Part shown: piece by piece, positions 5,358-23,577 of the stretch
Position numbering within the stretch: the stretch's first letter is position 1
Layout: every line of letters begins with the position of its first letter
Position numbers and translations under genes: made by a program
Origin: Amycolatopsis thermophila
GTDB taxonomy: Bacteria; Actinomycetota; Actinomycetes; Mycobacteriales; Pseudonocardiaceae
Direction: 5' to 3'
DNA: 64,000 bases
NCBI RefSeq assembly: GCF_030814215.1
Contig: NZ_JAUSUT010000001.1
Location: 6,882,001-6,946,000, forward strand
The notes under the pieces: generated by a model
Told to the model about the DNA's origin: nothing
The model's database searches: none
What the model saw: only the letters and a program-made list of their open reading frames with translations

Positions 5358-6155
5358 TCACTTCCCTTCCTCACCACGGCTGAGCCAGTCGAGCATCAGC
5401 CGGTTGAACTCCTCGGGACGCTCCTGGTGCAGGAAGTGGCCCGCGCCTTCCCAGACGTGCACCTCGTCCCGGTGACCGGCCGGCAGCGAACGCTCCAGCG
5501 TGGACGCTTCCCCGCTCGCGTACACCGCCAGGCGGGGATGGGATCGCCGCCGGAGGTAGTCGGCAGCCACCACCGCACGGCCGATTCCCTCGTCGCCCTC
5601 GTAGAGCCCGAGCAGGCACCCGGACACCACGTGCGCCGGCACGCCCAGCAGGCGCCGGATGTGCCAGGTCTTCAGGAACGGCGGTGTCGCCTCGGTGTAG
5701 AAGCCCGCCGCGAACATGCCGGCGGCGGTTCCCACCGGGTCCGGACCGCGCATCGCCGCGAGCACGGGGGCGAGGTGCTCGTCGGAGGCGTTGTACACGG
5801 GGTCGACCAGAACCAGCGCCTGGACCAGGCCGGGGTGGCGGACCGACAGCGCGGAGGCCACGACCGTGCCCATCGAGTGGCCCACCACCACCGCCCGCTC
5901 GACCTCCAGTGCGCGCAGCAGCGCCGCCGCGTCGTCGGCGAGGACCTGCGGGCGGTAGGAGCCTTCGGGGGCGGACGAGCGGCCGTGGCCCCGGTGATCC
6001 GGCGCGATCACCCGGTAGCCGGCGGCGAGCAGGGCGGGCACCTGCCACGACCAGTCGTGCGAGTCGCACGACCAGCCGTGCAGCAGCAGCGCCGCGGGTC
6101 CGCTCCCCTCGTCGGTATAGAACAGCTCCACGTCGTCCAGTGCGATCCGGGGCAT
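5358..6155 (-). CDS. Alpha/beta hydrolase
   Basis: A 265-residue alpha/beta hydrolase. LLLHGWSCDSHDW carries the oxyanion region, VVGHSMGTV the nucleophile Ser (about residue 93), and GAGHFLHQE the catalytic His near the C-terminus. It could hydrolyse an ester, lactone or ring-fission product. The ATG at 6155 shares one base with the TGA stop of the double CoA-transferase (TGATG), which fixes the start and implies translational coupling. Frames extending further upstream are only the shadow of that gene. Its place in an acyl-CoA operon suggests action on a pathway intermediate. Confidence 0.88.
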   Translation of the reverse strand: MPRIALDDVELFYTDEGSGPAALLLHGWSCDSHDWSWQVPALLAAGYRVIAPDHRGHGRSSAPEGSYRPQVLADDAAALLRALEVERAVVVGHSMGTVVASALSVRHPGLVQALVLVDPVYNASDEHLAPVLAAMRGPDPVGTAAGMFAAGFYTEATPPFLKTWHIRRLLGVPAHVVSGCLLGLYEGDEGIGRAVVAADYLRRRSHPRLAVYASGEASTLERSLPAGHRDEVHVWEGAGHFLHQERPEEFNRLMLDWLSRGEEGK

Positions 6156-9681: not shown

Positions 9682-10134
9682 TCAGTCCAGGTCCGCGCGC
9701 CGCGGCAGCCGCACGACCACCGCGCCGGGGCCCACAGTCACGCCGTCGTCGTCCTCGCAGGCCATGCGGACGGTGACCTCCCCGGTGGCCGGGTCGGCCC
9801 CGGTGACGGTGCCGGTGACCCGCGTGGTCGTCCCCACGAGGTTGAACCGGCCCATGCGGAACCCCTTCAGCGCCAGGATGCGCGCCCGAGGGCCGGCCCA
9901 GTCACGCACGCAGCGTTCCCACATCCCCATCAGGAACAGGGTGTTCGCGTAGGCGTCCGGCGCGCCCGTGGCCCGGGCGTACTCGCGGTTGTGGTGGATG
10001 GAGTTGAAGTCCCGGTTGGCGCCGGCCTCCATGACGAGGCGGTAGAGCGGGAGCGGGAACGCGACCGGCGGCAGCTCCTCCCCCACCCGCACGTCCTCGG
10101 CGTACCGGGTGTCCGGGACGGTCGGTGTGCTCAC
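9682..10134 (-). CDS. MaoC-like dehydratase, hot-dog fold
   Basis: A 150-residue hot-dog protein. The hydratase motif region RDFNSIHHNREYARATGAPD (about residues 41-60) supplies the Asp and His used by R-specific enoyl-CoA hydratases. It should add water to, or remove it from, an acyl-CoA. The GTG start at 10134 overlaps the stop of the upstream MaoC gene by four bases (GTGA) and has GGAG six bases upstream. The adjacent pair is arranged like known heteromeric two-subunit MaoC hydratases such as ChsH1-ChsH2, so the two products probably form one enzyme. Confidence 0.88.
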   Translation of the reverse strand: MSTPTVPDTRYAEDVRVGEELPPVAFPLPLYRLVMEAGANRDFNSIHHNREYARATGAPDAYANTLFLMGMWERCVRDWAGPRARILALKGFRMGRFNLVGTTTRVTGTVTGADPATGEVTVRMACEDDDGVTVGPGAVVVRLPRRADLD

Positions 10135-10727
10135 GACTGCTCCTTCCCCGCCGGGTGCGGGTCGTAGGCGTAGGTGCCGGTGCGCATCCGCGCCACCACG
10201 TCACCGGCGTCGGACACGATCTCCGACTCGAACGTGCTGAACGCGCCCCGCCCGACCCGGGTCTCCTTGGGCACGCACGACAGCAACCGCCGGCCCCGGG
10301 TGCCGAGGCGCTCACCCACCACCACCGGCCGGAGGAAGTCGATTTCGATGTCCGTGGCGAAGAACCCCGTGGTGCGCGGCGCAGGTCCCGGGTCGTCGTT
10401 GTTGATGGGCGAGCGGGCGGGCTGCGCGTCCGGGTCCGCCGAGTCGAACAGCGTCGCCTCGCCCGGCGCCCACATCGCCGGGATCGTGTACATCAGGACG
10501 GCGCTGCTCGGCGCGACCACCCCGTCGTACCCGGCGGCGCGCGCCGCCTCCTCGTCGTAGTGGACCGGACTGCCCAGCTCGAGGGGTTCGCAGTAGCGGC
10601 GGATCGTCCCGGGCTCGACGGCGTCGGCTCCCCAGGTGATGCTGCCGTCGGACAGGTCGGTACCGACCAGGGCGACCATGGTGTCCCAGGCGCTGACCCA
10701 GCCGGGCCGCTCGTCGTCGGCGCTCAT
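10131..10727 (-). CDS. MaoC N-terminal-type dehydratase subunit
   Basis: A 198-residue protein with a FAS1/MaoC N-terminal hot-dog fold, including RRYCEPLELGSPVHYDEEAA and the later FFATDIEIDFLRPVVVGERL. The catalytic hydratase motif is not evident, as expected for the non-catalytic half of a heteromeric MaoC pair; the adjacent 9682-10134 gene carries it. The ATG at 10727 overlaps the TGA of the upstream CoA-transferase (ATGA), and its own stop overlaps the next start (GTGA), so three genes are translationally coupled. Co-function with the CoA-transferase is inferred from this packing. Confidence 0.82.
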   Translation of the reverse strand: MSADDERPGWVSAWDTMVALVGTDLSDGSITWGADAVEPGTIRRYCEPLELGSPVHYDEEAARAAGYDGVVAPSSAVLMYTIPAMWAPGEATLFDSADPDAQPARSPINNDDPGPAPRTTGFFATDIEIDFLRPVVVGERLGTRGRRLLSCVPKETRVGRGAFSTFESEIVSDAGDVVARMRTGTYAYDPHPAGKEQS

Positions 10728-13228
10728 CGCATGACTCCTTGTTCCACGAGTGCCTTGATCCTTTCGTCGTCGTAGCCGAGCAGCTCCCCGAGCACCTTTT
10801 CGTTGTCCTGCCCGAAGGTCGGGGCGGCACACCGCACCACACCGGGTGTCTCGGACAACAGGTACCGCGGCCCTTCCACGGTCGTCTCCCCGTGCAGCGG
10901 ATGGGGCAGCCGCACGAGGTGGCCGCGGTGTGCCAGCTGGGGATCCGAGCAGAAGTCCGCGCTGGACGCGGACACGTGGGCGGGTACGCCTGCCGCTTGC
11001 AGGGCCGCTTCGACGTCGGCGGCGTACCGGGTGCTCGTCCACTCCGCGACCGCCTCCTCCAGCTCAGCGGCGCGGGCGAGCCGTCCGGCGGCGGAACCGA
11101 GCTCGGGATCGCCGACGAGGTCCGGCCTGCCGATCGCCGCGGCGAGCGCCCGCCACTGCGCGTCGGTGGTCACCGCGATCGCCACGTACCGGCGTCCCTG
11201 GTAGGCGTGCTCGTCGGGCAGGGCCGGGAAGACTCCGTGCGGCGCGTGTTCCCGGTCGGCGTTCCCCATTCGCGCCACGACGGTGCCGTTGTCGGCGTTG
11301 TCGGCGATCTCCGGCGCCTGGAACCACACACCGGCCTCGACCTGGGACACGTCGAGGTAGCACCCTTCTCCGGTGGCGTCCCGGCGGCGCAGCGCCGCGA
11401 GCAGGGCGACCAGGGAGAACCGCGGGCCGACGTAGTCGGTGTAGGGGCCGTAGGGCCCGAACGGGGGCCGGTCGGGCCACCCGACGATCGACTGGTACCC
11501 CGACAGCGAAGCGCCGATGTTGCCGTAGCCCGCCAGCGACGACCACGGTCCGGTCTGCCCGTTGATCGAGGTGCTGACCATGATCAGCCCCGGCTGCTCC
11601 GCGCGCAGGGTTTCGTGGTCCAGCGCCCAGCGGCGCATCAGACCGGGCGAGAAGGACTCGATCACCACGTCGGCCCACCGGGCCAGGTCGCGCGCGACCG
11701 CGCGCCCGGAGTCCGACCGCAGATCCAGGGTCACCCCGAGCTTCCCGGCGTTCCAGGTGCCGTAGAGGGCCGAGTTCTCGGGCCCGAAGACGCCGCCGTG
11801 GAAGGGCGGCATCAGCCGGGCGGTCTCGATCCTGGTCGAGGATTCGACGCGGACGACGGTGGCCCCGAAGTCGGCCAGTGCGCGGCCGACGACCGGACCG
11901 GCGACCACCCAGCTGAAGTCGAGGACCTTGAGCCCCTCCAGCGGAAGACGCCGGGTCCCCGCGACGGCCCTGGGCGCCGGGCGTTGCGGCGCGGACAGCC
12001 ACTCGTCGAGGACTTCACGCGTGTGCTCCCCCAGCGCCGGGGCCGGCCGCGTCAGCGTGCACCCGTCGGCGTCGGTGCGGGCGAACGGACCCGGCAGCGT
12101 GCGGGCACGCTCTCCCTCACCGACGGTGCGGAAGAACCCGCGCGCCGCCAGCTGCGGACTGGTGAGCACGTCGGTGGTGTCGAAGATCGGGACGCACAAC
12201 AGCTTGTACGCCATGGCCGCCTCGATGATCTCGGCCTTCGTCTTCGTGGCCAGGTGCTTCGCCACGGCGGAGCGCAACTCGGCCGTGTCGGCATCGGTGA
12301 ACTCGCCGGACTCGATGAGCCCGGGCACCGTCCGGAAGTCCAGCTCCGCGAAGCGCTCCACCGGTGCGCCTTCGGCGGCCATCCAGCGCAGGAAGTTGTT
12401 CGTGAACCCGCCCGAGGCCGGGCCGACGCCGATGTGGAACTCGACCAGACCGTCCCGGCACTCCCACTTCTTCAACGCGGCTTCGGTGCCGCTGCCGCTG
12501 CCCGACTGGTCGACGCGGGCCGCGCCGAGCGTCTGCCCGGCGGCCATGTCCTGGTTGACGTCGCCCACCGCGTCGGCGAGGACGCGGCCGAGCGTCGCCG
12601 CGCCGAGCGACGCCTGCGCGGACACGTCGACGAGCTGCCCGGCGCCGCTGGTGTCCCGCTCCCGGAGGGCGAGCAGGATTCCCGCCGCCGCGTCGGCCGC
12701 GGCGTGCAGGAACGCCTGCGGCAGTGAGATCCGCACGGGCGGGCGATCACCGTCGCGGTGTTCGTCCAACGGGCCGCCGGCCGCCCAGAGCACGAGGTCG
12801 GCGGCGTGGTAACCGGCTTTCGGCCCGGTCCGCCCGAACGCCGTCACCGACGCGTAGACCAGCCCGGGGTTGAGCGCGCGGAGATCGCCGGCGTCGAGAC
12901 CGCGCGGGCCCTGCACAGCGGGGCCGTCGGTCTCGATCACGACGTCCGCGACCGCGGCGAGCCTGCGGACCAGATCCCGGCCTTCCGGGGTGCCGGGGTC
13001 GGCCACGATGCCCCGCTTGTTCGCGGCGTAGGCCTCCCACACGTAGGAGGCATCGGGCCGTGGTGAACCGCCGGGAGCCCGCAGGTGCGGCGCCCTCCGC
13101 CGGGCACTGCTGCCCGATGGAGGTTCGACCTGGACCACGTCCGCGCCGAGGTCGGCGAGGATCCTGCCCGCGAGCAGACCCCGTTCGTCACTGAGATCGA
13201 GCACGCGCAAGCCGTCCACGAAAGCCAT
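10724..13228 (-). CDS. Double-length family III CoA-transferase (second tandem fusion)
   Basis: An 834-residue protein with two CaiB/BaiF domains (about 1-400 and 425-825). The second has VLDFSWVVAGPVVGRALADF and TDYVGPRFSLVALLAALRRR, with Asp at the expected catalytic position. The first reads RISLPQAFLHAAADAAAG there, with no acid, as in the other tandem fusion in this window. Start ATG 13228 has AGGAGAGG just upstream. It leads an operon with the two MaoC genes. The region upstream carries a nested inverted repeat at 13262-13318 and the same-strand TetR gene, which probably represses this operon. Confidence 0.88.
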   Translation of the reverse strand: MAFVDGLRVLDLSDERGLLAGRILADLGADVVQVEPPSGSSARRRAPHLRAPGGSPRPDASYVWEAYAANKRGIVADPGTPEGRDLVRRLAAVADVVIETDGPAVQGPRGLDAGDLRALNPGLVYASVTAFGRTGPKAGYHAADLVLWAAGGPLDEHRDGDRPPVRISLPQAFLHAAADAAAGILLALRERDTSGAGQLVDVSAQASLGAATLGRVLADAVGDVNQDMAAGQTLGAARVDQSGSGSGTEAALKKWECRDGLVEFHIGVGPASGGFTNNFLRWMAAEGAPVERFAELDFRTVPGLIESGEFTDADTAELRSAVAKHLATKTKAEIIEAAMAYKLLCVPIFDTTDVLTSPQLAARGFFRTVGEGERARTLPGPFARTDADGCTLTRPAPALGEHTREVLDEWLSAPQRPAPRAVAGTRRLPLEGLKVLDFSWVVAGPVVGRALADFGATVVRVESSTRIETARLMPPFHGGVFGPENSALYGTWNAGKLGVTLDLRSDSGRAVARDLARWADVVIESFSPGLMRRWALDHETLRAEQPGLIMVSTSINGQTGPWSSLAGYGNIGASLSGYQSIVGWPDRPPFGPYGPYTDYVGPRFSLVALLAALRRRDATGEGCYLDVSQVEAGVWFQAPEIADNADNGTVVARMGNADREHAPHGVFPALPDEHAYQGRRYVAIAVTTDAQWRALAAAIGRPDLVGDPELGSAAGRLARAAELEEAVAEWTSTRYAADVEAALQAAGVPAHVSASSADFCSDPQLAHRGHLVRLPHPLHGETTVEGPRYLLSETPGVVRCAAPTFGQDNEKVLGELLGYDDERIKALVEQGVMR

Positions 13229-13261
13229 GGCCTCTCCTGGGTTCCGCCGGCCCGGCCATTA

Positions 13262-13318
13262 CTGAACGAAAATGGTCGGTATTGTGGGCTCGAGGTTATA
13301 CCGACGAAGTTCGTTCAG
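13262..13318. promoter_or_regulatory. Nested double inverted repeat, probable TetR operator
   Basis: Outer arms CTGAACGAA (13262-13270) and TTCGTTCAG (13310-13318) are perfect inverted repeats. Inner arms GTCGGTAT (13275-13282) and ATACCGAC (13298-13305) are also perfect, with four bases between outer and inner arms on both sides. It lies between the TetR stop and the start of the double CoA-transferase. The same outer sequence recurs at 13985-14040 and 18169-18224, all beside TetR genes. Confidence 0.72.
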
Positions 13319-13333
13319 CAATAGCCTGGACGC

Positions 13334-13948
13334 TCAGCCCGCGGTCACGGCGCCGAGGACGAAGTCGACCAGCTGTTCCGCGTAGTCGGTCAACCCCTCC
13401 CCGACCCGCCCGCGCAGTTCGTCCGGGGTCGACAGTGCGTGGTTGAGACAGCCGCCCACGATGGCGTCGAGCAGCAGGGTGACGCTTGTGCCGGACTTCA
13501 GCTCGCCGCGGGCGATCCCGCGGCGGACGATCGCGCGGGCGGCGAGGACCTGCGACTGCCGGAGCTCCTTCACCCGTTCGGCGACTCCGGGTATGCGGTC
13601 GGCGTCCATCAGGAGCCTGGTGGTGACCCGGCCCGAGTCCCCGAAGAACGAGGTCAGCATCTGCCCGGCGAGCCGGACGAGGTCCTCGCGCACGGAGCCG
13701 GTGTCGATGTCGGCGACCGGGGTGACGCGCGCCTCCAGGCAGCTGGCCAGCAGCTCCTTCTTGTTCGGCCACCGCAGGTAGATCGACGCCTTGCCGACCC
13801 CCGCACGCCGGGCCACGGCGTCGACGGTGAACCTGCCCCAGCCGTCCTCGCCGAACACCTCCGCCGCCGCGCGCAGGACACGGCGGTCGACCTCGGGGTC
13901 CCGCGGCCGTCCGGCCGCCGGGGCCGCGTCAAGAGCGTTGCCGGTCAT
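13334..13948 (-). CDS. TetR-family regulator
   Basis: A 204-residue TetR repressor. The N-terminal HTH includes FTVDAVARRAGVGKASIYLR (about residues 40-60) and is preceded by AAGRPRDPEVDRRVL. The C-terminal ligand domain is of the kind found beside fatty-acid and acyl-CoA genes. It is closely similar in length and sequence to the TetR at 17527-18138. It lies between two copies of the shared inverted-repeat motif, upstream of the CoA-transferase operon and divergent from the MBL hydrolase. A CoA thioester ligand is inferred from context. Confidence 0.9.
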   Translation of the reverse strand: MTGNALDAAPAAGRPRDPEVDRRVLRAAAEVFGEDGWGRFTVDAVARRAGVGKASIYLRWPNKKELLASCLEARVTPVADIDTGSVREDLVRLAGQMLTSFFGDSGRVTTRLLMDADRIPGVAERVKELRQSQVLAARAIVRRGIARGELKSGTSVTLLLDAIVGGCLNHALSTPDELRGRVGEGLTDYAEQLVDFVLGAVTAG

Positions 13949-13984
13949 GCGCTCACCTTGCCAGAGCCGTGAGGAGGGTCATTG

Positions 13985-14040
13985 GTGAACGACATCCGAT
14001 CAGCATATAGTCGTCCTATTGCTGGACGTAACCTGTTCAG
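13985..14040. promoter_or_regulatory. Probable TetR operator, paired TGAACG elements
   Basis: GTGAACG (13985-13991) and, inverted, TGTTCAG (14034-14040) are separated by 42 bp in the divergent region between the TetR gene and the MBL hydrolase. The right arm is less perfect than in the two other copies. CATATAG inside may be a -10 element for one of the divergent promoters. Confidence 0.55.
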
Positions 14041-14062
14041 TATTTTCGGAGGGGAGTGGACC

Positions 14063-15148
14063 ATGCCGGCCGACCAGGGCATCGAAGTCCTCGGGCTCGA
14101 GCAGCAGGCAGCCTGGCGGGCCAAGCAGCTGCCCCCGGCCGAGAAGCTGCCGGGCGGGCTGTGGTCGGTTCCGGTGCCCATCCCGGACAACCCGCTGCGC
14201 TACACGTTGTCCTACCTCGTGCCCGCCGACGACGGTCTGGTGGTCGTCGACCCGGGCTGGGACACCGACGAGGGCTGGCGCGCGCTGCTCGACGGTCTCG
14301 CCGCGGCCGGTGCCTGCACCGCCGACGTGACCGGGATCGTGGCCACCCACGTGCACCCCGACCACCACGGACTGTCCGGCCGCCTGCGCGCCGAATCCGG
14401 CGCGTGGATCGGCATGCACCCGGCCGAACGGGACACCCTGCCCCACCGGCACCGCGGCGAGCACGGCGACCTGCGGGCCGAGTTCACGGCGTGGCTGCGC
14501 ACCTGCGGTGCATCAGAGGCGGACGCCACGGACCTGCTCGGTACCCTCGCGGCCGCCCCTCGTCCGGCCGACGAGATGGCCGAACCCGACGTGCTGCTGC
14601 ACGACGGCGACCTCGTTCCGATGCGCGGGAGGCGGTTGCGCGCGGTCTGGACCCCCGGGCACACCCCCGGTCACCTGTGCCTGCAGGAGCCCGACGCCCG
14701 GTTGCTGCTCACCGGTGACCACGTCCTACCCCGGATCACCCCGGCCATCGGCACCCGGCTCGACACCGCCGAACCACCGCTCGGACGGTTCCTCGGCTCC
14801 CTGGCACGGACCGCGACGTTCGACGACCACGACGCGCTTCCCGCGCACGAGTACCGGTTCCGCGGCCTCGCGCGGCGCAGCGAGCAGCTGCGTGCGCACC
14901 ACGAGCAACGGTGCCAGGAGATCCTCGCCGTCACCGCAGAACTCGGGCGGCCCACCGTCTGGGAGGTAGCCACCCACCTGACCTGGTCGCGGCCGTGGCC
15001 GGAGATCGGCTTCATGAAGGTGAGCGCCGTCGCCGAGACCGCCGCGCACCTCGAACACCTCGCCGATCAGGACCGCATCCACTGGAACAAACCCGAATCC
15101 GGCACGGCCGGCGCACTACGGGTCAGCACGAACAGGAGCATCCTTTGA
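14063..15148 (+). CDS. Metallo-beta-lactamase-fold hydrolase
   Basis: A 361-residue MBL-fold protein. The metal-binding motif THVHPDHHG (about residues 95-103) is intact, with further ligands in TPGHTPGH and TGDHVLPR. The family includes glyoxalase II, lactonases and CoA-thioester hydrolases, so a thioesterase or lactonase role fits the locus. The C-terminal third (about 270-361) resembles the winged-helix-like tail of LACTB2-type hydrolases. Start ATG 14063 has GGAGGGG upstream; an earlier in-frame start at 13982 would overlap the operator. Its TGA overlaps the TTG start of the next gene. Confidence 0.88.
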   Translation: MPADQGIEVLGLEQQAAWRAKQLPPAEKLPGGLWSVPVPIPDNPLRYTLSYLVPADDGLVVVDPGWDTDEGWRALLDGLAAAGACTADVTGIVATHVHPDHHGLSGRLRAESGAWIGMHPAERDTLPHRHRGEHGDLRAEFTAWLRTCGASEADATDLLGTLAAAPRPADEMAEPDVLLHDGDLVPMRGRRLRAVWTPGHTPGHLCLQEPDARLLLTGDHVLPRITPAIGTRLDTAEPPLGRFLGSLARTATFDDHDALPAHEYRFRGLARRSEQLRAHHEQRCQEILAVTAELGRPTVWEVATHLTWSRPWPEIGFMKVSAVAETAAHLEHLADQDRIHWNKPESGTAGALRVSTNRSIL

Positions 15149-17517
15149 GCGACAACGACATCGACCCGCGTACCCCGGTCGTGGTGGGCGTCGGGCAGTT
15201 CGCCGAACGCCTGGAAGACCCCGGGTACCAGCGCCTGTCCGCCGTGGACCTCGCCGCCGCCGCCGTCCGCGCGGCGCTGGAAGACACCGGCGCCGACCCC
15301 GCGGCCGTCGCGGCCGCCATCGACACCGTCGGGGGCATCCGCCAGTTCGAGACCTCCACCCCCGGGGCGCCCGCACCCCTGGGCAAGTCGGACAACTACC
15401 CCCGATCGGTGGCCAACCGGGTCGGCGCGGCGCCGGCCCGCGCGATCCTGGACGTCGCGGGCGGACAAGGCCCGCAGCACCTCGTCACCGAGTTCGCGGC
15501 GACCATCGCCGCCGGCGACTCGCAGGTCGCGCTCGCCTTCGGGTCCGAAGCGATCTCCACCGTGCAGCACCTGGCCAAGGCCGAGGACAAACCCGACTTC
15601 ACCGAGCACGCCGAAGGCAGCCTCGAAGACCGCGGCTTCGGCCTGAAGGGCCTGATGTCCCGGCACCAGGCGATGCACGGGCTCACCGACGCGCCGAGCC
15701 AGTACGCCCTGTTCGACAACGCGCGGCGCGCCCGCCTCAAGCTGTCGCGCGAGGACTACGCCGCGGCGATGGGCGAGCTGTTCGCGCCGTTCACCAAGGT
15801 CGCCGCCGCCAACCCCTACGCCGCCGCTCCGGTGGAACGCAGCGCCGAGGAGCTCGTCACGCCCACTGAGGCGAACCGGATGATCGCCGATCCCTACCCG
15901 CGCTACATCGTGGCCCGGGACAAGGTCAACCAGGGCGCGGCGGTGCTCGTCATGTCCGTCGCGGCCGCCGAACGGCTCGGCGTGCCCCGTGAGAAGTGGG
16001 TCTTCCTGCACGGGCACGCCGACCTGCGTGAGCGCACCCTGATGGAGCGCACCGACCTGAGCGCGAGCCCGGCGTCCGTCATGGCGTCCCGGCACGCCCT
16101 GGAGCTGGCCGGCGTCGACGTGGCCGAACTGTCCACACTGGACCTCTACAGTTGCTTTCCCGCCCCGGTCTTCAACATCTGTGACGGGCTCGGCCTGAAG
16201 GCCGACGACCCACGCGGACTGACCCTCACCGGAGGGCTGCCCTTCTTCGGTGGTGCGGGGAACAACTACTCCATGCACGCCATCGCCGAGACGGTCCAGC
16301 GGATGCGGGCCGAGCCGGGCACCTTCGGGTTCGTCGGCGCCAACGGCGGGCTGATGAGCAAGTACTCCGTCGGCGTCTACTCGACCACCCCGGTCGAATG
16401 GCGCGCGGACGACAGTGCCGCGCTGCAGCGGGAGATCGACTCCTGGCCGGCGCCGGAAGAAGCACTGCAGGCCGACGGGTGGGCCACCATCGAGACCTAC
16501 ACCGTCAAACACAGCCGCGGCGGCAAGCGCACCGGCGTCGTCATCGGCAGGCTCGAAGCCGACGACCGCCGCTTCGTCGCCATGACCCAGGACGGCGACG
16601 AGGAGATCCTCGCGCACCTGTCCGCCGGCGAACCGATCGGCACCCGCGTGTTCGTGCGTTCCTTCGGGTTCGGCAACCGGGTCACCACCAGCGAAGCCCG
16701 GATGAACGAACTGTTCCCGCCCCGCGCCCCCGGGTTCCGCGAGGACTACGAGCACGTCCTGGTGCGCCGCGACGGGCACCTGCTGGAGATCACGATCAAC
16801 CGCCCCGACGTCCGCAACAGCCTGCACCCGCAAGCCAACGACGAACTCGACGAGATCTTCGACGCCTACTTCGCCGACCCCGACCTGTGGGTCGCGATCC
16901 TCACCGGCGCCGGGGACAAAGCCTTCTCCGCGGGCAACGACCTCGGCTACTCCGCCTCGGGCAAACCCGTGTGGGTGCCCAAGAACGGGTTCGCGGGCCT
17001 GACCAGCCGCCGGGACCTGCCCAAGCCGGTCATCGCCGCGGTCAACGGGTTCGCCATGGGCGGCGGGTGCGAGATCGCCCTGGCCTGTCACCTCGTGGTC
17101 GCAGACGCCACGGCGAAGTTCGCCCTGTCCGAAGTCAAGGTCGGACTCGTCGCGGGGGCAGGCGGGCTGGTCCGGCTGCCGCGCACGGTCCCGGCCAAGG
17201 TGGCCACCGAGATGATCCTCACCGGACGGCGTCTCAGCGCCGAAGAGGCCCAGTCCTACGGTCTGGTCAACCGGGTGACCGAGGCGGGCAAGGCACTCGA
17301 GGGTGCCCGGGCATTGGCGGCCGAGATCATCGACGGGTCCCCCACGTCGGTCCGCGTGTCACTGCAGATCATGGCGGAGACCTCCGGAATCGCCGACACC
17401 GTCGACGCGGTCACCCATCCCTCCTCCGCCTTCGAGGACCTCATGCTCAGCGAGGACATGGTGGAAGGCATCACCGCCTTCGCCCAGAAGCGGCGCCCGG
17501 TGTGGCACAACCGCTGA
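15145..17517 (+). CDS. Fusion of SCP-x-type thiolase and enoyl-CoA hydratase
   Basis: A 790-residue fusion. Residues 1-380 are an SCP-x-like acetyl-CoA acetyltransferase (TPVVVGVGQFAERL, LPFFGGAGNNYSMHAIAET, ANGGLMSKYSVGVYST). Residues 400-510 are a small beta-rich OB-like domain (TVKHSRGGKRTGVVIGRL). Residues 525-790 are a crotonase with AFSAGNDLGYS and GFAMGGGCEIALACHLVVA. The classical thiolase nucleophile is not visible; the aligned segment reads DVAGGQGPQHLVTE. The TTG start at 15145 has AGGAG at six bases and overlaps the MBL stop (TTGA). The fusion would couple hydration with C-C cleavage or formation. It is a single continuous frame without internal stop. Confidence 0.88.
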   Translation: MSDNDIDPRTPVVVGVGQFAERLEDPGYQRLSAVDLAAAAVRAALEDTGADPAAVAAAIDTVGGIRQFETSTPGAPAPLGKSDNYPRSVANRVGAAPARAILDVAGGQGPQHLVTEFAATIAAGDSQVALAFGSEAISTVQHLAKAEDKPDFTEHAEGSLEDRGFGLKGLMSRHQAMHGLTDAPSQYALFDNARRARLKLSREDYAAAMGELFAPFTKVAAANPYAAAPVERSAEELVTPTEANRMIADPYPRYIVARDKVNQGAAVLVMSVAAAERLGVPREKWVFLHGHADLRERTLMERTDLSASPASVMASRHALELAGVDVAELSTLDLYSCFPAPVFNICDGLGLKADDPRGLTLTGGLPFFGGAGNNYSMHAIAETVQRMRAEPGTFGFVGANGGLMSKYSVGVYSTTPVEWRADDSAALQREIDSWPAPEEALQADGWATIETYTVKHSRGGKRTGVVIGRLEADDRRFVAMTQDGDEEILAHLSAGEPIGTRVFVRSFGFGNRVTTSEARMNELFPPRAPGFREDYEHVLVRRDGHLLEITINRPDVRNSLHPQANDELDEIFDAYFADPDLWVAILTGAGDKAFSAGNDLGYSASGKPVWVPKNGFAGLTSRRDLPKPVIAAVNGFAMGGGCEIALACHLVVADATAKFALSEVKVGLVAGAGGLVRLPRTVPAKVATEMILTGRRLSAEEAQSYGLVNRVTEAGKALEGARALAAEIIDGSPTSVRVSLQIMAETSGIADTVDAVTHPSSAFEDLMLSEDMVEGITAFAQKRRPVWHNR

Positions 17518-17526
17518 CCCGCGCGG

Positions 17527-18138
17527 TCAGCGTTCCGGGGCGGGGATGCGGACAAGCAGGAAGTCGACCAGAGCGCGCACGTAGTCGTCGGCGTTCTCCC
17601 GCAGCTGTGCGCGGGCAGCGGCGGGCGTGGTCTGGACGTGGTTCACGACAGCGCCGGACAGCGTGTCCAGCAACAGCGTGACCGACGTGTCCTCGGGCAG
17701 CTCGCCCCGCTCGATGGCACGCCGGACGATGGCACGGGCGGCGAGGATCTGCGACTCCCGGATCCCCGCCCAGTGCCCGGCCACACCGGGAATGCTGTCC
17801 GCCTCCAGGGAGATCCGCAGCGCGGCCCGCCGCGAGTCGCCCAAGTAGTTCCGCATGAGCTGCGAGGCGAGCTGGATCAGCTCGTCGCGCACCGTGCTGG
17901 CCCGCACCTCGGTGACCGCGCTGACGTGCCGCCGGAGCGCTTCCAGCAACAGCTCCTGTTTGGTCTGCCACCGCAGGTAGATCGACGCCTTGCCGACGCC
18001 CGCGCGCTTGGCCACCGCCTCCACGCTGAACCCGGCCCACCCCTGCTCCCCGAAGAGCGCGATCGCGGCATCGGCGATCTTCCGGTCGACTTCGGGGTCG
18101 CGGGGGCGGCCCGCGGCTGAAGTCTCGATCTCGGTCAT
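17527..18138 (-). CDS. TetR-family regulator
   Basis: A 203-residue TetR repressor beginning MTEIETSAAGRPRDPEV, with HTH FSVEAVAKRAGVGKASIYLR. The ATG at 18138 has GGAAGAAGG upstream. A longer frame starting at 18273 would overlap the divergent acyl-CoA dehydrogenase and the operator, so it was not chosen. It is a paralogue of the TetR at 13334-13948, and its promoter carries the same paired TGAACG elements. It is convergent with the thiolase/hydratase fusion (9 bp apart) and divergent from the dehydrogenase operon, its likely target. Confidence 0.9.
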   Translation of the reverse strand: MTEIETSAAGRPRDPEVDRKIADAAIALFGEQGWAGFSVEAVAKRAGVGKASIYLRWQTKQELLLEALRRHVSAVTEVRASTVRDELIQLASQLMRNYLGDSRRAALRISLEADSIPGVAGHWAGIRESQILAARAIVRRAIERGELPEDTSVTLLLDTLSGAVVNHVQTTPAAARAQLRENADDYVRALVDFLLVRIPAPER

Positions 18139-18168
18139 CGCTGTGCCTTCTTCCTGCCGAGCCCTTTG

Positions 18169-18224
18169 CTGAACGGCTCCCGTCAGTATAGAGTCGAACC
18201 CAGTTACAGACGAGTACCGTTCAG
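18169..18224. promoter_or_regulatory. Probable TetR operator, perfect 8-bp inverted repeat
   Basis: CTGAACGG (18169-18176) and CCGTTCAG (18217-18224) are perfect inverted arms 40 bp apart in the divergent region between TetR and the acyl-CoA dehydrogenase. Reading inward from either arm gives TGAACGG, a 5-6 bp spacer, then CGTC and GTA. GTATAG between the arms may be a -10 element. Confidence 0.72.
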
Positions 18225-18236
18225 GAATGAGGGGAC

Positions 18237-20303
18237 ATGGCGTCGAACGAGGAAGTGACCGCCTTCGCCGCATCAGTGGCGGGCGTGGCCGGCGAACAGT
18301 GGGGGAACGCGACCGCGGCCCCTTCGGGTGATCTGGAGAAGTTGTGGCGGACAGCGGCCGCGCAGGGGTGGTTCGACCTTGCTGCGGCCGACGCGTTGGA
18401 CGCCGCTCTCGCCGCCGTCCGTCAACTGGGCCGGGTGGCGTGTCCCCTGCCCGTCATCGACGGCTTCGCCGCCGCCCGGCTCCTGCCCAGTCTCGACTTC
18501 GGTGACGTGCGGGTCCTGGTCTCGATCGGCACCGAGGGAGATCTCGTCGAGCACGCGGAGGCCGCCACCGCCGCCACGCACGTGCTGCTCGTGCCCGCCG
18601 AGGGTGGCACCGCGTACCTGCGGGAGATCGCCGGAGTGGAACCGCGTCCCGGGCTCGCTGTGCCGGCGTGGTGCCAGGTCCGGCTCGGTGCCACCACGAC
18701 GAGCGTGGACATCGATTCCGCTCGTGCGGATGAAGCGGTGGTGCTGATGCGGCTCGGGCTCGCCGCGCGGGCGATCGGCGCCGCGGAGCGGGCGCACGAG
18801 ATGGCGGTCGAGCACGCCAAGACCCGGCACCAGTTCGGCCGTCCGATCGGCTCGTTCGGCGCGGTCCAGCAGCGTACGGCGTCCTGCCAGATCGACGTCA
18901 GCGCCGGGAACCTGTTGATCGAGCAGGCCCAGGAGCAGTGGGCAGCGCGGACCGCGGACTGGACCTCGTGGGCCGAGATCGCGGTCGAGCACGTCCGCGA
19001 AGCCGCGCCCCGCGTGCAACTCGGTGCGCAGCACACCCTCGCCGCCATCGGGTACTTCGAGGAACACGAAGCGCCGTGGTTGTTCCGGCGCGTGCACGCC
19101 GACGTCACGCGGCTGCGGTCCTTCCCGCGCGCGGCGGGCGAGTTCGCCGACGTGCTGGTCGAGACGGACACGTCACTGCCGCCGTTCCGCGCGGGTGACG
19201 TCGGCGAAGCCTTCCGCACCGAGGTGCGGGCACTGTTCGCCGAACACGCCGAAAAGTCCTCCCGCAGCAACATGGACGTCGACCACGAACTGGTGCGCGC
19301 GGTGGCGGACCGCGGCTGGTTCGGGTTCGCCTGGCCGGCGGAATACGGCGGCCGCGACGCGACACTGGCCGAGCAGGTCGTGCTCAACGAGGAAGCCGCC
19401 TACTCCGGCGCACCCGTCACCAGGGCCCTGAGCGCGGTGATGCTACTCGGCAACTCGATCCTCAAACACGGCAGCCCCGAGCAGAAGGACCGTTTCCTGC
19501 CGCTGATCCGTCGCGGTGAACTCGCGTTCTGCCTCGGCTACAGCGAACCCGAAGCCGGGTCGGACCTCGCGTCGCTCAAGACCCGCGCCGTGCGTGACGG
19601 CGACGGCTGGGTCATCAACGGGCAGAAGCTGTGGACCACCGGCGGCCACACGGCCGACTGGGTGTGGCTGGCGGTCCGGACCGACCCGGACGCGAAGCCC
19701 CGGCACGCCGGTATCACCGTGTTCCTGGTTCCCATGGACACCCCCGGTATCACCGTGCAGCAGCACCGCGCGCTGTCCGGCGAGATCTCCTGCACCGTCT
19801 TCTACGACGACGTCCGGGTGCCCGACTCGGCACGAGTCGGCGAGGTCAACGGCGGCTGGAAGGTCATCACCGACGCACTGGCGGGCGAACGCATCACGAT
19901 GGGCAACATCGCCGCAGCACTGCACCGCCAACTCGACGACCTCCTCGCGGAAATCCGCGCCGACGTGGACGGCACGGTCGGTCCGCGCGGCTCCGGCCGC
20001 CGCGCCCTGCTGGGGCGGGTCGCGGTCGCGATCCAGGCCACCCGCGCCCTCGTCTCGGCCGCGATCGACGCGACCGGCCAGGGCCGGGGCGCCCGGCTGG
20101 AAGCACCGATGGCCGGGGTGCTCGGCGGCGAGACCGCGGAGGCGTTCGGCGAAGCCGCGCTGGAAATCCTCGGCCCGGACGCCGCACTGGCTTCCGCCCC
20201 GTTCGAATACGGCCTGCGGCTGTCGGTCATGTACGTCGTCGGCGGCGGAACCAACGACATCCAGCGCGGCCTGATCGCCCGCGGCCTCGGCCTGCCCCGC
20301 TGA
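18237..20303 (+). CDS. Double-length acyl-CoA dehydrogenase (FadE34-like layout)
   Basis: A 688-residue protein made of two acyl-CoA dehydrogenase-like halves (about 1-310 and 325-688). The C-terminal half has the FAD/substrate motif GYSEPEAGSDLASLKTRA, WTTGGHTADWVWLAV and the terminal GGGTNDIQRGLIARGLGLP. The N-terminal half is degenerate and lacks the SEPxAGSD motif. This parallels FadE34 (ChsE3) and other fused actinobacterial dehydrogenases that mimic an alpha2beta2 enzyme with half the active sites. It should introduce an alpha,beta double bond into a bulky acyl-CoA. ATG 18237 follows GAGGGG. It heads an operon with the acyl-CoA synthetase and the monooxygenase-like gene. Confidence 0.88.
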   Translation: MASNEEVTAFAASVAGVAGEQWGNATAAPSGDLEKLWRTAAAQGWFDLAAADALDAALAAVRQLGRVACPLPVIDGFAAARLLPSLDFGDVRVLVSIGTEGDLVEHAEAATAATHVLLVPAEGGTAYLREIAGVEPRPGLAVPAWCQVRLGATTTSVDIDSARADEAVVLMRLGLAARAIGAAERAHEMAVEHAKTRHQFGRPIGSFGAVQQRTASCQIDVSAGNLLIEQAQEQWAARTADWTSWAEIAVEHVREAAPRVQLGAQHTLAAIGYFEEHEAPWLFRRVHADVTRLRSFPRAAGEFADVLVETDTSLPPFRAGDVGEAFRTEVRALFAEHAEKSSRSNMDVDHELVRAVADRGWFGFAWPAEYGGRDATLAEQVVLNEEAAYSGAPVTRALSAVMLLGNSILKHGSPEQKDRFLPLIRRGELAFCLGYSEPEAGSDLASLKTRAVRDGDGWVINGQKLWTTGGHTADWVWLAVRTDPDAKPRHAGITVFLVPMDTPGITVQQHRALSGEISCTVFYDDVRVPDSARVGEVNGGWKVITDALAGERITMGNIAAALHRQLDDLLAEIRADVDGTVGPRGSGRRALLGRVAVAIQATRALVSAAIDATGQGRGARLEAPMAGVLGGETAEAFGEAALEILGPDAALASAPFEYGLRLSVMYVVGGGTNDIQRGLIARGLGLPR

Positions 20304-20332: not shown

Positions 20333-22453
20333 ATGACCCTCGCGATCACCCCGGAGCGGCTCGCTTCACTGTTCCGGCCGCGTTCGGTCGCCCTCGTCGG
20401 AGCCTCGAACAAGTCGAGCTTCTCCCGCAGCGCCTACAACAACCTGGTGGAGTTCGGCTTCGCCGACCGCACGTTCCTGGTCAACCGGCGCGGCGCCGAG
20501 ACCCACGGGCGGCCGACGGTCACATCGTGCACGCGGATCGGGGAGCCGGTCGACGTCGCGTTCATGATGGTGCCCCAGGCGGGCACGCTGGACGCCCTCA
20601 CCGACGCGGCCGAAGCCGGGATCCGCAACGCCGTGATCCTGTCCTCGGGGTACGGAGAAGCCGGTGAGGCCGGCCGGGCCGCGCAGGCCGAGCTCGTCGC
20701 GCACGCCGAGTCCCTGGACGTGGTGCTGCTCGGACCGAACCACCTCGGCTTCGCGAACTTCGTCGACCAGGTGCCGGTGACGCCGATCAACGGCCTCCCG
20801 CACCGGGCTGGTTCGGTGGCTCTGCTCTCCCAGAGCGGCGCCAGCTCGCAGGCCATGCTCAGTTTCGCGGGGATCTGCGGCGCGGACCTCTCGTCGATGG
20901 TCACCCTCGGGAACGAGGCCATGATCACCGCGGGGCACGTGCTGGACTACCTCGTCGACGACGAGCACACCCGCGCGATCGCGATCTTCCTGGAGACCAT
21001 CCGCGACCCGGAGGTCTTCCGCTCCGCGGCCCGGCGCGCCGCCGCCGCGGGCAAGCCGGTCGTGGTGCTCAAAGCGGGCAGCAGCGAGCTGGCCGCACGC
21101 ACCGCGGCGGCCCACACCGGAGCGCTCGTCGGCGACGACCGGACCATCGACGCGGTCTTCCGCGACCTCGGAGTCATCCGGGTGGACTCCATCGAGGACA
21201 TGCTGATCACCGCGGGCACCGCCGCGCAGCTCGGGCGGCTGGCGCGTCCCGGCATCGGCGTGGTGTCGATCTCCGGCGGGGCCTGCGACATCCTCGCCGA
21301 CCGCGCCGAGGACCTGGGCGCCGAACTGCCGGCGTTCGCCGAGAGCACCGAGCAGGCGCTCGCGGAGATCATGCCCCCGTACGGCACCATACACAATCCA
21401 CTTGACGTCACCGGCGCCGCGATCATCGACCCGACCATCTTCACCCGCGCGATCGAAGCGGTCTCCGCCGATCCGGGCGTCGGTGTGGTCGCCGTCGTCA
21501 ACGCTCTGCCCTGGCAGTCGGACGGCCGACCGTACACCGGCCAGGTCTTCGCCGACGCCATCGGCGACGGGATCGGCCGCGCGCAGAGCCCCGTGGTCTA
21601 CGTCAACCAGGTGCTCGAGCCGATCACCGCCTACACCAGGGAGGTCATGGCGCACGCGAGGGTGCCGCACGCCGTGCCCGGGCTGCGGCAGGCCGTCGTG
21701 GCGCTGCGGAACCTCGCCTGGTGGTCGGAGACCACGCGCGACGCCGCCACCCCGCACGAGCCGCGTGCGCTTCCGGTGCCGGACTCGTCCGCCCGCCGCG
21801 GCACGTGGTCCGAATCCGCTGCCCGCGGGCTGCTGGCGGACGCGGGAATCCCGGTCGTGCCGGCGGAGCTGGTGACCTCGGCCCAGCAGGCGGTACGGGC
21901 CGCCGCCGGGTTCGGCGGCCCGGTCGCGCTGAAGATCGTCTCCCCCGGGATCCTGCACAAGAGCGACATCGGCGGAGTCCGGCTCGGTCTGGCCGGCGAC
22001 GAGGCCGTCGCCGCGGCCTACGAAGAAGTCGCCGCGGCCGGCGCGAAGGTACCGGGCGCCACCATCGAAGGCGTGCTCGTCTCCCCGATGCGGGCCGGCG
22101 GCACCGAACTGCTGGCCGGTGTCGTCCGGGATCCGCAGTGGGGACCGGTGCTCGCGGTGGCGCTCGGCGGCATCTTCGTCGAGGTCCTCGGCGACTCGGC
22201 CCTCTCACCGCTGCCCGTCACTCCAGCCAGGGCCCGGCAGCTGCTCGAGGGACTACGGGGTGCAGCGCTGCTGAGGGGTGCGCGCGGCGGCGAGCCCGCG
22301 GACCTCGACGCCCTCGCCGACGTCATCGCCCGGGTCGGCGACCTGGCGCTCGCGCTGGGTGACGACCTCGAATCCCTCGAAATCAACCCGCTGCGGGTTG
22401 CCGGAAACACCGTCGAAGCCCTCGACGCTGTCGTCACGTGGAGGAACACATGA
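20333..22453 (+). CDS. NDP-forming acyl-CoA synthetase
   Basis: A 706-residue acetate--CoA ligase (ADP-forming) family enzyme with fused alpha and beta parts. RSVALVGASNKS (about 22-33) is the CoA-binding start, AAAHTGALVGDD (about 260-271) holds the phospho-His, and LKIVSPGILHKSDIGGVRLG (about 535-554) belongs to the ATP-grasp domain. The family makes acyl-CoA from acid, CoA and ATP, reversibly. ATG 20333 has AGGAG eight bases upstream. It lies 29 bp after the dehydrogenase and overlaps the next gene by four bases (ATGA). Probably it activates the acid that the dehydrogenase then oxidises. Confidence 0.92.
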   Translation: MTLAITPERLASLFRPRSVALVGASNKSSFSRSAYNNLVEFGFADRTFLVNRRGAETHGRPTVTSCTRIGEPVDVAFMMVPQAGTLDALTDAAEAGIRNAVILSSGYGEAGEAGRAAQAELVAHAESLDVVLLGPNHLGFANFVDQVPVTPINGLPHRAGSVALLSQSGASSQAMLSFAGICGADLSSMVTLGNEAMITAGHVLDYLVDDEHTRAIAIFLETIRDPEVFRSAARRAAAAGKPVVVLKAGSSELAARTAAAHTGALVGDDRTIDAVFRDLGVIRVDSIEDMLITAGTAAQLGRLARPGIGVVSISGGACDILADRAEDLGAELPAFAESTEQALAEIMPPYGTIHNPLDVTGAAIIDPTIFTRAIEAVSADPGVGVVAVVNALPWQSDGRPYTGQVFADAIGDGIGRAQSPVVYVNQVLEPITAYTREVMAHARVPHAVPGLRQAVVALRNLAWWSETTRDAATPHEPRALPVPDSSARRGTWSESAARGLLADAGIPVVPAELVTSAQQAVRAAAGFGGPVALKIVSPGILHKSDIGGVRLGLAGDEAVAAAYEEVAAAGAKVPGATIEGVLVSPMRAGGTELLAGVVRDPQWGPVLAVALGGIFVEVLGDSALSPLPVTPARARQLLEGLRGAALLRGARGGEPADLDALADVIARVGDLALALGDDLESLEINPLRVAGNTVEALDAVVTWRNT

Positions 22454-23577
22454 TCAAGACCGCACTCACCGACCTGCTCGGGGTCGACCACCCGCTCGTC
22501 GGGTTCAACCGCTCCCCCGGGGTCGTGGCCGCGGTGACCAACGCCGGCGGGTTCGGTGTCCTGGCCGCCAGCGCGTACACCCCCGAAGAGCTGGACGCCC
22601 AGTTGACCTGGATCGAGCAGCAGGTGGAGGGCAAACCCTACGGCGTCGACCTCCTCGTCCCCGAGAAGTTCGCCACCGGTGACCCGGACAACCTGATCGC
22701 CAGCCTGCGTGCCCAGATCCCGGCCGAGCACATCGCGTTCGTCGACGGCCTGCTCGCGGAGTACGGCATCCCGGCGACCACACCGCGGGCCGGCCACGAC
22801 GAGGTCTCCGCCTCGATCAACCCCGACGGCGCCCAGGCCCTGCTCGACGTCGCCTTCTCCCACCGCATCTCCCTGGTCGCCAACGCACTCGGCACTCCCC
22901 CACCGCACCTCGTCGACCGCGCGCACCAGGCCGGTGTCGTCGTCGCCTCACTGGTGGGACAACGCAAACACGCCGTCCGTCAGCTCGATTCAGGGGTGGA
23001 CGTCCTGATCGCGCAGGGCACGGAAGCCGGCGGGCACACCGGCACGATCGCCACCATGGTGCTCACCCCGGAGATCGTCGACCTGGCCGGGGACAAACCC
23101 GTCCTCGCCGCCGGTGGGATCGCCTCCGGCAGGCAGCTGGCCGCGGCACTGGCCCTCGGCGCCTCCGGCGCGTGGTGCGGTTCGGTGTGGCTGTCCAGCC
23201 ACGAGGACATCACACCGTTGCCCGTCAAGGAAAAGTTCCTCGCCGCCACCAGCTCCGACACCCTCCGCTCGCCCACCCGCACCGGCAAACCGGCCCGCCA
23301 GCTCCGCAGCGCCTGGCACGACGCGTGGGAGAAGCCGGACAGCCCGAAGCCCCTGCCCATGCCGCTGCAACCCATGCTCGTCAACGAAGCCTGGGAACGC
23401 ATCGACGCCGCGGCCGAGCAGGGCCACGAGGGCGCGAAGAAGCTCGAATCCTTCTTCATCGGCCAGGTCGTCGGCTCCTTCGCCGCCCTCCGCCCGGCCG
23501 CCGACATCGCCCGGCAACTGGTCGCCGACTGCGAGAACCGGCTGGCCGAGCTGGCGGCAAGCACGACGAACGGCTGA
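22450..23577 (+). CDS. Nitronate monooxygenase-like flavoprotein (2-nitropropane dioxygenase fold)
   Basis: A 375-residue FMN-binding TIM-barrel protein. NAGGFGVLAASAYTPEEL near the N-terminus and AQGTEAGGHTGTIATMVL (about 190-207) are characteristic of the nitronate monooxygenase/enoyl-reductase-II family, which also includes enzymes acting on CoA esters. In an acyl-CoA operon, an enoyl-CoA-related or detoxifying role is possible; nitronate is not implied. ATG 22450 overlaps the synthetase stop and has GGAGG five bases upstream. It is the last gene of this operon, followed by a strong hairpin at 23681. Confidence 0.85.
   Translation: MIKTALTDLLGVDHPLVGFNRSPGVVAAVTNAGGFGVLAASAYTPEELDAQLTWIEQQVEGKPYGVDLLVPEKFATGDPDNLIASLRAQIPAEHIAFVDGLLAEYGIPATTPRAGHDEVSASINPDGAQALLDVAFSHRISLVANALGTPPPHLVDRAHQAGVVVASLVGQRKHAVRQLDSGVDVLIAQGTEAGGHTGTIATMVLTPEIVDLAGDKPVLAAGGIASGRQLAAALALGASGAWCGSVWLSSHEDITPLPVKEKFLAATSSDTLRSPTRTGKPARQLRSAWHDAWEKPDSPKPLPMPLQPMLVNEAWERIDAAAEQGHEGAKKLESFFIGQVVGSFAALRPAADIARQLVADCENRLAELAASTTNG

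Follow-up and report, generated by a model that had tools for sequence, protein, structure and literature searches.

In the tetR/tetA system of Tn10, two palindromic operators (tetO1 and tetO2) lie over divergent promoters and the repressor is autoregulated; as described for this system, occupation of one operator switches off both genes, whereas with the other occupied tetA is blocked and tetR only reduced (PMC3037858, PMC3511530), and the account of tet in the former paper gives no indication of cooperativity (PMC3037858). The TetR-family protein SCO3367 of Streptomyces coelicolor is described as having two sites between divergent genes, each site closer to one of the two, and as repressing its neighbour (PMC3511530). 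For EdcR, which represses a cluster for oestradiol catabolism in Caenibius tardaugens, the proposed palindrome overlaps the -10 element (PMC8700777). Here we compare these systems with three intergenic regions in a 64,000-nucleotide stretch (the window) of the Amycolatopsis thermophila genome, a single contig of 7.3 Mb. S1 (13262-13318) is flanked by the 3' end of tetR1 and by the start of caiB, a double CoA-transferase gene; S2 (13985-14040) separates tetR1 from mbl, a metallo-beta-lactamase-fold gene; and S3 (18169-18224) separates tetR2 from a gene for a fused acyl-CoA dehydrogenase. We consider it likely, with a probability of about 0.82, that each region is a repressible promoter, at which TetR dimers on two separate operators repress an acyl-CoA catabolic cluster. 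The features, with operators and promoters as predicted from sequence, are the following:

9682-10134: MaoC-like gene, after caiB
10131-10733: FAS1-dehydratase-like gene, after caiB
10724-13228, minus strand: caiB, double CoA-transferase family III protein, first gene after S1
13262-13280, no strand: S1 O_dn, predicted downstream operator, CTGAACG-N5-GGTCGG, at about +7 to +25 of the putative caiB start
13293-13321, minus strand: putative caiB promoter, TTGCTG (13316-13321), 17 bp, TAACCT (13293-13298)
13300-13318, no strand: S1 O_up, predicted promoter-embedded operator, CTGAACG-N5-CGTCGG on the minus strand
13334-13948, minus strand: tetR1, TetR_N and TetR_C_11 domains
13982-14011, plus strand: putative mbl promoter, TTGGTG, 18 bp, TATAGT
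13985-14003, no strand: S2 O_up, predicted promoter-embedded operator, GTGAACG-N5-CGATCAG
14002-14007, minus strand: putative tetR1 -10, TATGCT, overlapping the O_up inner half-site
14022-14040, no strand: S2 O_dn, predicted downstream operator, CTGGACG-N5-TGTTCAG, at about +5 to +23
14063-15148, plus strand: mbl, metallo-beta-lactamase-fold hydrolase, first gene after S2
15145-17517, plus strand: thiolase-like/enoyl-CoA hydratase fusion, second gene after S2
17527-18138, minus strand: tetR2, TetR_N and TetR_C_11 domains, product 54% identical to TetR1
18166-18194, plus strand: putative acyl-CoA dehydrogenase promoter, TTGCTG, 17 bp, TAGAGT
18169-18187, no strand: S3 O_up, predicted promoter-embedded operator, CTGAACG-N5-CGTCAG
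18185-18190, minus strand: putative tetR2 -10, TATACT, overlapping the O_up inner half-site
18206-18224, no strand: S3 O_dn, predicted downstream operator, CAGACG-N5-CGTTCAG, at about +6 to +24
18237-20303, plus strand: fused acyl-CoA dehydrogenase, first gene after S3
20339-23577, plus strand (first start approximate): ADP-forming CoA ligase-like and nitronate-monooxygenase-like (NMO) proteins, downstream of S3

Like Tn10 as described above, S2 and S3 have a tetR gene divergent from its target with two predicted operators in between, a layout that would put the operators over the predicted promoters of both genes (see below for the negative strict E. coli scan). Unlike Tn10, the operators have another sequence, the targets are acyl-CoA catabolic genes, and the pair at S1 stands without a divergent tetR. 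With the SCO3367 region as described, the likeness (two sites in a divergent intergenic region) is one of site layout and not of operator letters. TetR1 and TetR2 have the same two Pfam domains as EdcR, TetR_N (56.3 and 58.5 bits, gathering cut-off 24) and TetR_C_11 (70.3 and 47.7 bits, gathering cut-off 32), and by eye the EdcR half-site layout TnnCnnTAC resembles TTnCTRRAC here; the operator proposed for EdcR, TnnCnnTACnAnTnGTAnnGnnA, has a centre 2 bp shorter, reads TAC..GTA, and is given as one palindrome per promoter (PMC8700777). By domain make-up, EdcR appears to be the nearest characterised protein among those we met, with a different proposed operator. By analogy, the arrangement seems to work like tetO1/tetO2; it is real, well conserved and useful for annotation, and of a kind already known in principle. 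It yields the operator code CTRRACG-N5-CGTYYAG, along with a predicted regulon and promoters, for a TetR_C_11 clade whose members, in Pseudonocardiaceae and Micromonosporaceae, are often found with acyl-CoA catabolic genes. Searches of open-licence papers on TetR operators and binding motifs and on Amycolatopsis TetR pathways did not turn up this code.

The original prediction described each region as a pair of inverted TGAACG elements (one of them TGAACA) 40-43 bp apart, and these are found in all three, with a hexamer-to-hexamer gap of 43 bp at S1 and of 42 bp at S2 and S3. The nested symmetry described for S1 is present as well (TGAACGAA-4-GTCGGTAT ... ATACCGAC-4-TTCGTTCA), with 26/40 position pairs around 13290 being complementary. 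Exact TGAACG-N24-44-CGTTCA pairs occur twice in the window where 0.08 are expected, and none of 100 shuffled windows held two of them. Bare hexamer pairs with gaps of 24-44 are found at 12 places across the genome, S1 and S3 included, and are thus not rare; by contrast, the genome scan that had been proposed for further pairs shows that the extended pair is rare (models R1 and R3, below).

Each arm, however, appears to be not half of one long palindrome: the letters point to a complete candidate operator of about 19 bp per arm, CTRRACG-N5-CGTYYAG, with CTRRACG as the half-site. The CGTC-like bases that were said to continue each element inward are indeed there, but they form the inner half-site of each operator: CGTCGG and GGTCGG at S1, CGATCAG and CTGGACG at S2, and CGTCAG and CAGACG at S3, with those of S1 being weak (S1 scores below 11/14 in a simple palindrome scan). 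Among 80 loci with a homologous tetR, TGAAC/GTTCA pairs with a gap of 40-47 recur upstream of tetR, in Amycolatopsis, Pseudonocardia, Actinoplanes, Paractinoplanes and Dactylosporangium and also in one Streptosporangiales assembly, although a few pairs with this gap are of another type (e.g. L029, L066, L085). In Actinoplanes and Paractinoplanes the arms often have a complete CGTTCA as their inner part and so read CTGAACG-N5-CGTTCA. Moreover, a single perfect CTAGACG-N5-CGTCTAG precedes the metallo-beta-lactamase (MBL) gene in L014 (8126-8144), L016 and L028, and therefore one such 19-mer would be the unit and the predicted pair two operators. The full palindromes within each arm in relatives and the single perfect operators together rule out the half-site reading of the arms. 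In L018 a perfect CTAGACG-N5-CGTCTAG lies between tetR and the MBL gene, with a degenerate partner possible. The palindromes at these Actinoplanes MBL genes (L014, L016, L018, L028) have TTC..GAA flanks and represent a variant operator, TAGACG. Our survey of operators per locus, which covered L011-L072 and L077, found only one operator in several homologues (e.g. L025, L036, L039, L042, L045, L053, L056). Prauserella has no operator above threshold upstream of tetR, and the top operator-like 19-mer ahead of the MBL gene reaches 12-13 of 14 in the three examined.

So are the two operators of a pair equivalent? We oriented 28 pairs by gene (target to the right) and sought TAnnnT 17/18 bp after the outer hexamer, which was present for 27/28 O_up versus 1/28 O_dn (that of G003), while TTG at the start of the outer hexamer was present for 27/28 versus 0/28; L044 is the O_up exception in both respects. 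A further 11 O_dn carry TA at 17 bp without the last T of TAnnnT, and the contrast therefore rests partly on this T and on TTG. The table holds recognisable pairs only, hand-chosen from earlier scans, and omits the single-operator loci, L026 (second operator incomplete), L038, L065 (28-bp spacing), L074, L077 and G219, as well as L051, a copy of L049; its 28 sites are related and not independent, with 16/28 coming from Actinoplanes or Paractinoplanes. The two operators of a pair thus appear not to be equivalent, O_up being embedded in the predicted promoter and O_dn lying just past the putative start. With starts set 7 bp after the -10, near 13286 on the minus strand and near 14018 and 18201 on the plus strand, O_dn falls at +5 to +25 in all three window promoters. 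Furthermore, the spacer is 18 bp where the inner half-site is full-length (S2, the mbl pair of L011, L012, L013, L017 and L019-L022) and 17 bp at the other sites; spacer length tracks inner half-site length, and operator and promoter spacer therefore seem to be interlocked.

A scan of 13200-18300 for the strict E. coli sigma-70 consensus returned 0 promoters (0.2 expected); high-GC actinobacteria usually have looser promoter hexamers than this consensus, and the hexamers at these sites are of that looser kind. The TTG..N17/18..TAnnnT layout at O_up, matched in 27/28, is also what one would see if the conserved blocks were not repressor sites but elements of the core promoter, with the outer TTGCTG serving as -35 and the inner TAnnnT as -10. 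We regard this as very improbable, since O_dn is the same operator and has the TAnnnT layout in 1/28 only and TTG in 0/28, CTGAACG and CGTC are conserved between the promoter boxes, and isolated perfect palindromes occur. Back-to-back promoters with operators over both starts were rejected for the enzyme gene, as TTG and TAnnnT are found at O_up in 27/28 and hardly at O_dn; we infer such a layout for the tetR -10 only. An argument from the loss of a T on the tetR side of S1 (TATACC versus TAnnnT) was dropped, because this T belongs to the half-site consensus, so that the test is not independent.

Compared with A. bartoniae, S1 has 3 differences, all of them between the operators, which are both unchanged, and S2 has 2, one in an inner half-site and one between the operators, while the flanks of both show more changes and gaps than the elements. 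S1 keeps both operators although there is no gene start on the side facing the tetR1 3' end. In five Actinoplanes (L017, L019-L022) the pair lies at the MBL promoter with tetR convergent and no tetR start there; these pairs match model R1 at E 2e-9 to 6e-4, none of them being in its training set. The pairs kept at S1 and in these Actinoplanes therefore suggest that O_dn is kept for the enzyme promoter too, and not only for tetR.

The proposed constant spacing of about four helical turns, with both sites on the same face, fails; the idea arose because the distance was taken between the outer half-sites (42-43 bp). Between operator centres it is 38 bp at S1 and 37 bp at S2 and S3, or about 3.5 turns, and over all pairs with placed arms it covers a range of 33-38 bp (about 3.1-3.6 turns). 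In other Pseudonocardiaceae the centres are 36-38 bp apart (36 bp in G003), and in Micromonosporaceae and the Streptosporangiales assembly 33-35 bp (34 bp in most Micromonosporaceae), which at 10.5 bp/turn amounts to about 3.4-3.6 and 3.1-3.3 turns, respectively; this variation therefore leaves no fixed same-face geometry. A plain 14-position palindrome score of at least 12/14, applied to 81 sources (the 80 tetR loci plus the window), gave 20 pairs within 15-100 bp, at distances of 28 (1), 33 (1), 34 (14), 35 (1) and 37 bp (3), whereas ten shuffles, a rough control in which two-base blocks were moved, averaged 0.3 pairs over the whole range, with 0 at 33-38 bp; S2 passes at 12/14, S3 at 11 only, and S1 at neither.

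On a rival view, two TetR dimers acting cooperatively, or a single assembly, would recognise the TGAACG arms either on one face over about four turns or by looping, with both paralogues cross-regulating all three operons. Such cooperation would fit the pairs retained without a divergent tetR (S1 and the five Actinoplanes MBL promoters), the tight spacing within groups (37-38 bp for S1-S3, 34 bp in most Micromonosporaceae) and the identical recognition regions of TetR1 and TetR2, but we think it unlikely: centres at 36-38 bp in Pseudonocardiaceae and 33-35 bp in Micromonosporaceae are neither whole turns nor of one phase, many relatives have single operators, and each paralogue type is found with its own site where the genome lacks a close counterpart of the other. 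There is also a small chance that the pair is one device with two geometries (about 34 or 37 bp), in which the dimers in the spacer and at +5/+25 would act cooperatively, trapping polymerase or keeping it out, with two old TetR clades sharing one regulon at all three promoters. EthR, a TetR-family repressor, reportedly binds its operator as an octamer, so that a regulatory region carries more than one dimer, in one cooperative assembly; unlike in EthR, the two predicted operators here are discrete and spaced apart, and their variable spacing argues against a rigid EthR-like contact between dimers. Under our preferred reading of two separate operators, the pair is asymmetric with one operator in the promoter, and its spacing is therefore more simply set by promoter layout. 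As a natural comparison within one repressor type, the locus sets one-operator against two-operator promoters and 34-bp against 37-bp spacing.

Two paralogous TetR proteins had been proposed, and TetR1 and TetR2 are 54% identical and have the same GVGKASIYLRW recognition region; TetR linkage, paired sites and three operons are all borne out. Neither protein scores above the curated cut-off of the NCBIfam TetR equivalogs (ScbR, FadR, FasR, KstR, MftR and others), the best model for both being ScbR (40.1 and 44.7 bits versus a cut-off of 150), and a PDB search returned general TetR relatives (best E 1.4e-16). In an analysis whose bootstrap had not settled, TetR1 with L011-L013 (100/99) and TetR2 with L056 and L125 (97/99) fall into separate supported clades. 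At E <= 1e-30, A. bartoniae has a TetR1-type regulator with S1- and S2-type sites and no close TetR2 counterpart, its second homologue being 45% identical and located beside a distant dehydrogenase where no pair is found, and G003 has a TetR2-type regulator with an S3-type site, the other homologue there being 35% identical. Each type thus occurs without a close counterpart of the other, and the suggested cross-regulation of three operons by both paralogues is not needed. Most likely, judging from these genomes, TetR1 controls S1 and S2, and TetR2 controls S3; cross-binding or cross-regulation by the two is possible, because their recognition regions are identical and the operators nearly so. 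At L128 (G005:C19, 1340-1530), where a 45% TetR homologue of A. bartoniae lies by a 46% acyl-CoA dehydrogenase without a pair, there is a different palindromic stretch, TTACGTACG...CGTACGCAA, possibly reflecting a shifted specificity.

For the genome scans we built three sequence-only models, each on part of the known pairs or arms: R1 from 15 pairs (S1-S3 included), R2 from 28 single arms, and R3 from 14 pairs, none of which is from Amycolatopsis. With 150/1027 first-look candidates scored in the own genome, R1, trained on these very sites among others, returned S2, S3 and S1 at E 2e-15 to 8e-13, and at E <= 10 it added S1 and S3 read on the reverse strand, together with a weak match to a single arm. 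Under strict filters, with 19/1261 candidates scored, R3 returned exactly S3 (6e-7), S2 (9e-4) and S1 (2.5e-3) at E <= 0.01. Across 249 family genomes R3 matched 5 at this threshold, the own genome, G003, G005, G091 and G167; the matches in G003 and G005 adjoin tetR. Those in G091 and G167 were set aside as probable chance, being partial and without tetR, and none of the 11 window proteins, among them TetR1 and TetR2, has a match in the 3-kb loci around them.

R1 matched 4/19 genomes of the genus at E <= 0.01, all within the 5 that have a TetR homologue at E <= 1e-30 (38% identical in the fifth, which has no R1 match), and 4/249 genomes of the family at E <= 0.001, all within the 28 that have a TetR homologue at E <= 1e-40; every match in these two scans adjoins a homologous tetR. 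Under strict filters R1 found no pair in 24/28 of these family genomes; among 26 such tetR loci inspected, some have single or drifted operators (e.g. L139, L140, L157, L159) and others have no 19-mer at 12/14 upstream of tetR. Weak matches may be lost in the large scans because of their strict filters and the few candidates (12 or 19) scored per genome. With 44 TetR-like matches at E <= 0.001 in the own genome, one could suspect that a regulator other than the neighbouring TetRs binds these operators. We find this quite improbable, given that R1 pairs in the own genome and genus are found only beside these tetR genes and that the operators accompany homologous tetR in other families. Outside the window, the sole further place in the own genome given by R1 and R2 at E <= 10 is a weak single-operator match at G000:C1:2926678-2926707 (L108, L114; E 0.16 with R1, 0.35 with R2).

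How might two such operators act on these genes? In the mechanism we propose, a dimer on O_up, located between the two boxes of the enzyme promoter (TTGNTG...TAnnnT, spacer 17/18 bp), would block polymerase there. At S2 and S3, O_up would also overlap the -10 and start of the divergent tetR; with O_up over both promoters, one bound dimer would therefore silence both directions, and the same sites would autoregulate the tetR genes. A dimer on O_dn, roughly between +5 and +25 of the enzyme transcript, may block initiation or early elongation, and O_dn would overlie the -35 zone of tetR. At S1, the two operators would control caiB, with no gene starting in the opposite direction. The repressor would be released by an effector, for which a pathway acyl-CoA or acid is the most likely candidate; caiB with the two dehydratase-like genes, the mbl-thiolase/hydratase genes, and the dehydrogenase-CoA ligase-NMO genes would then be induced together. 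In other genera, the operator pair precedes a thiolase/hydratase gene in L030, L043 and L050, and a DUF1996 gene (a mechanical frame call) in L044.

The window contains a second long CoA-transferase family III protein (6155-8554, minus strand); the 206 bases upstream of its gene hold no 19-mer above 10 of 14. In the Paractinoplanes loci L047, L048, L058, L060 and L061, the tetR/operator pair faces a gene for a universal stress protein (Pfam E 7e-24 in L058, by eye from the protein start in the others) and not acyl-CoA genes, which would represent reuse of the regulator. Lastly, L050 of Paractinoplanes lichenicola carries a compact cluster in one 13.6-kb locus, comprising a CaiB part, two dehydratase-like genes, a dehydrogenase, a thiolase/hydratase and an MBL gene, with a single tetR found there.
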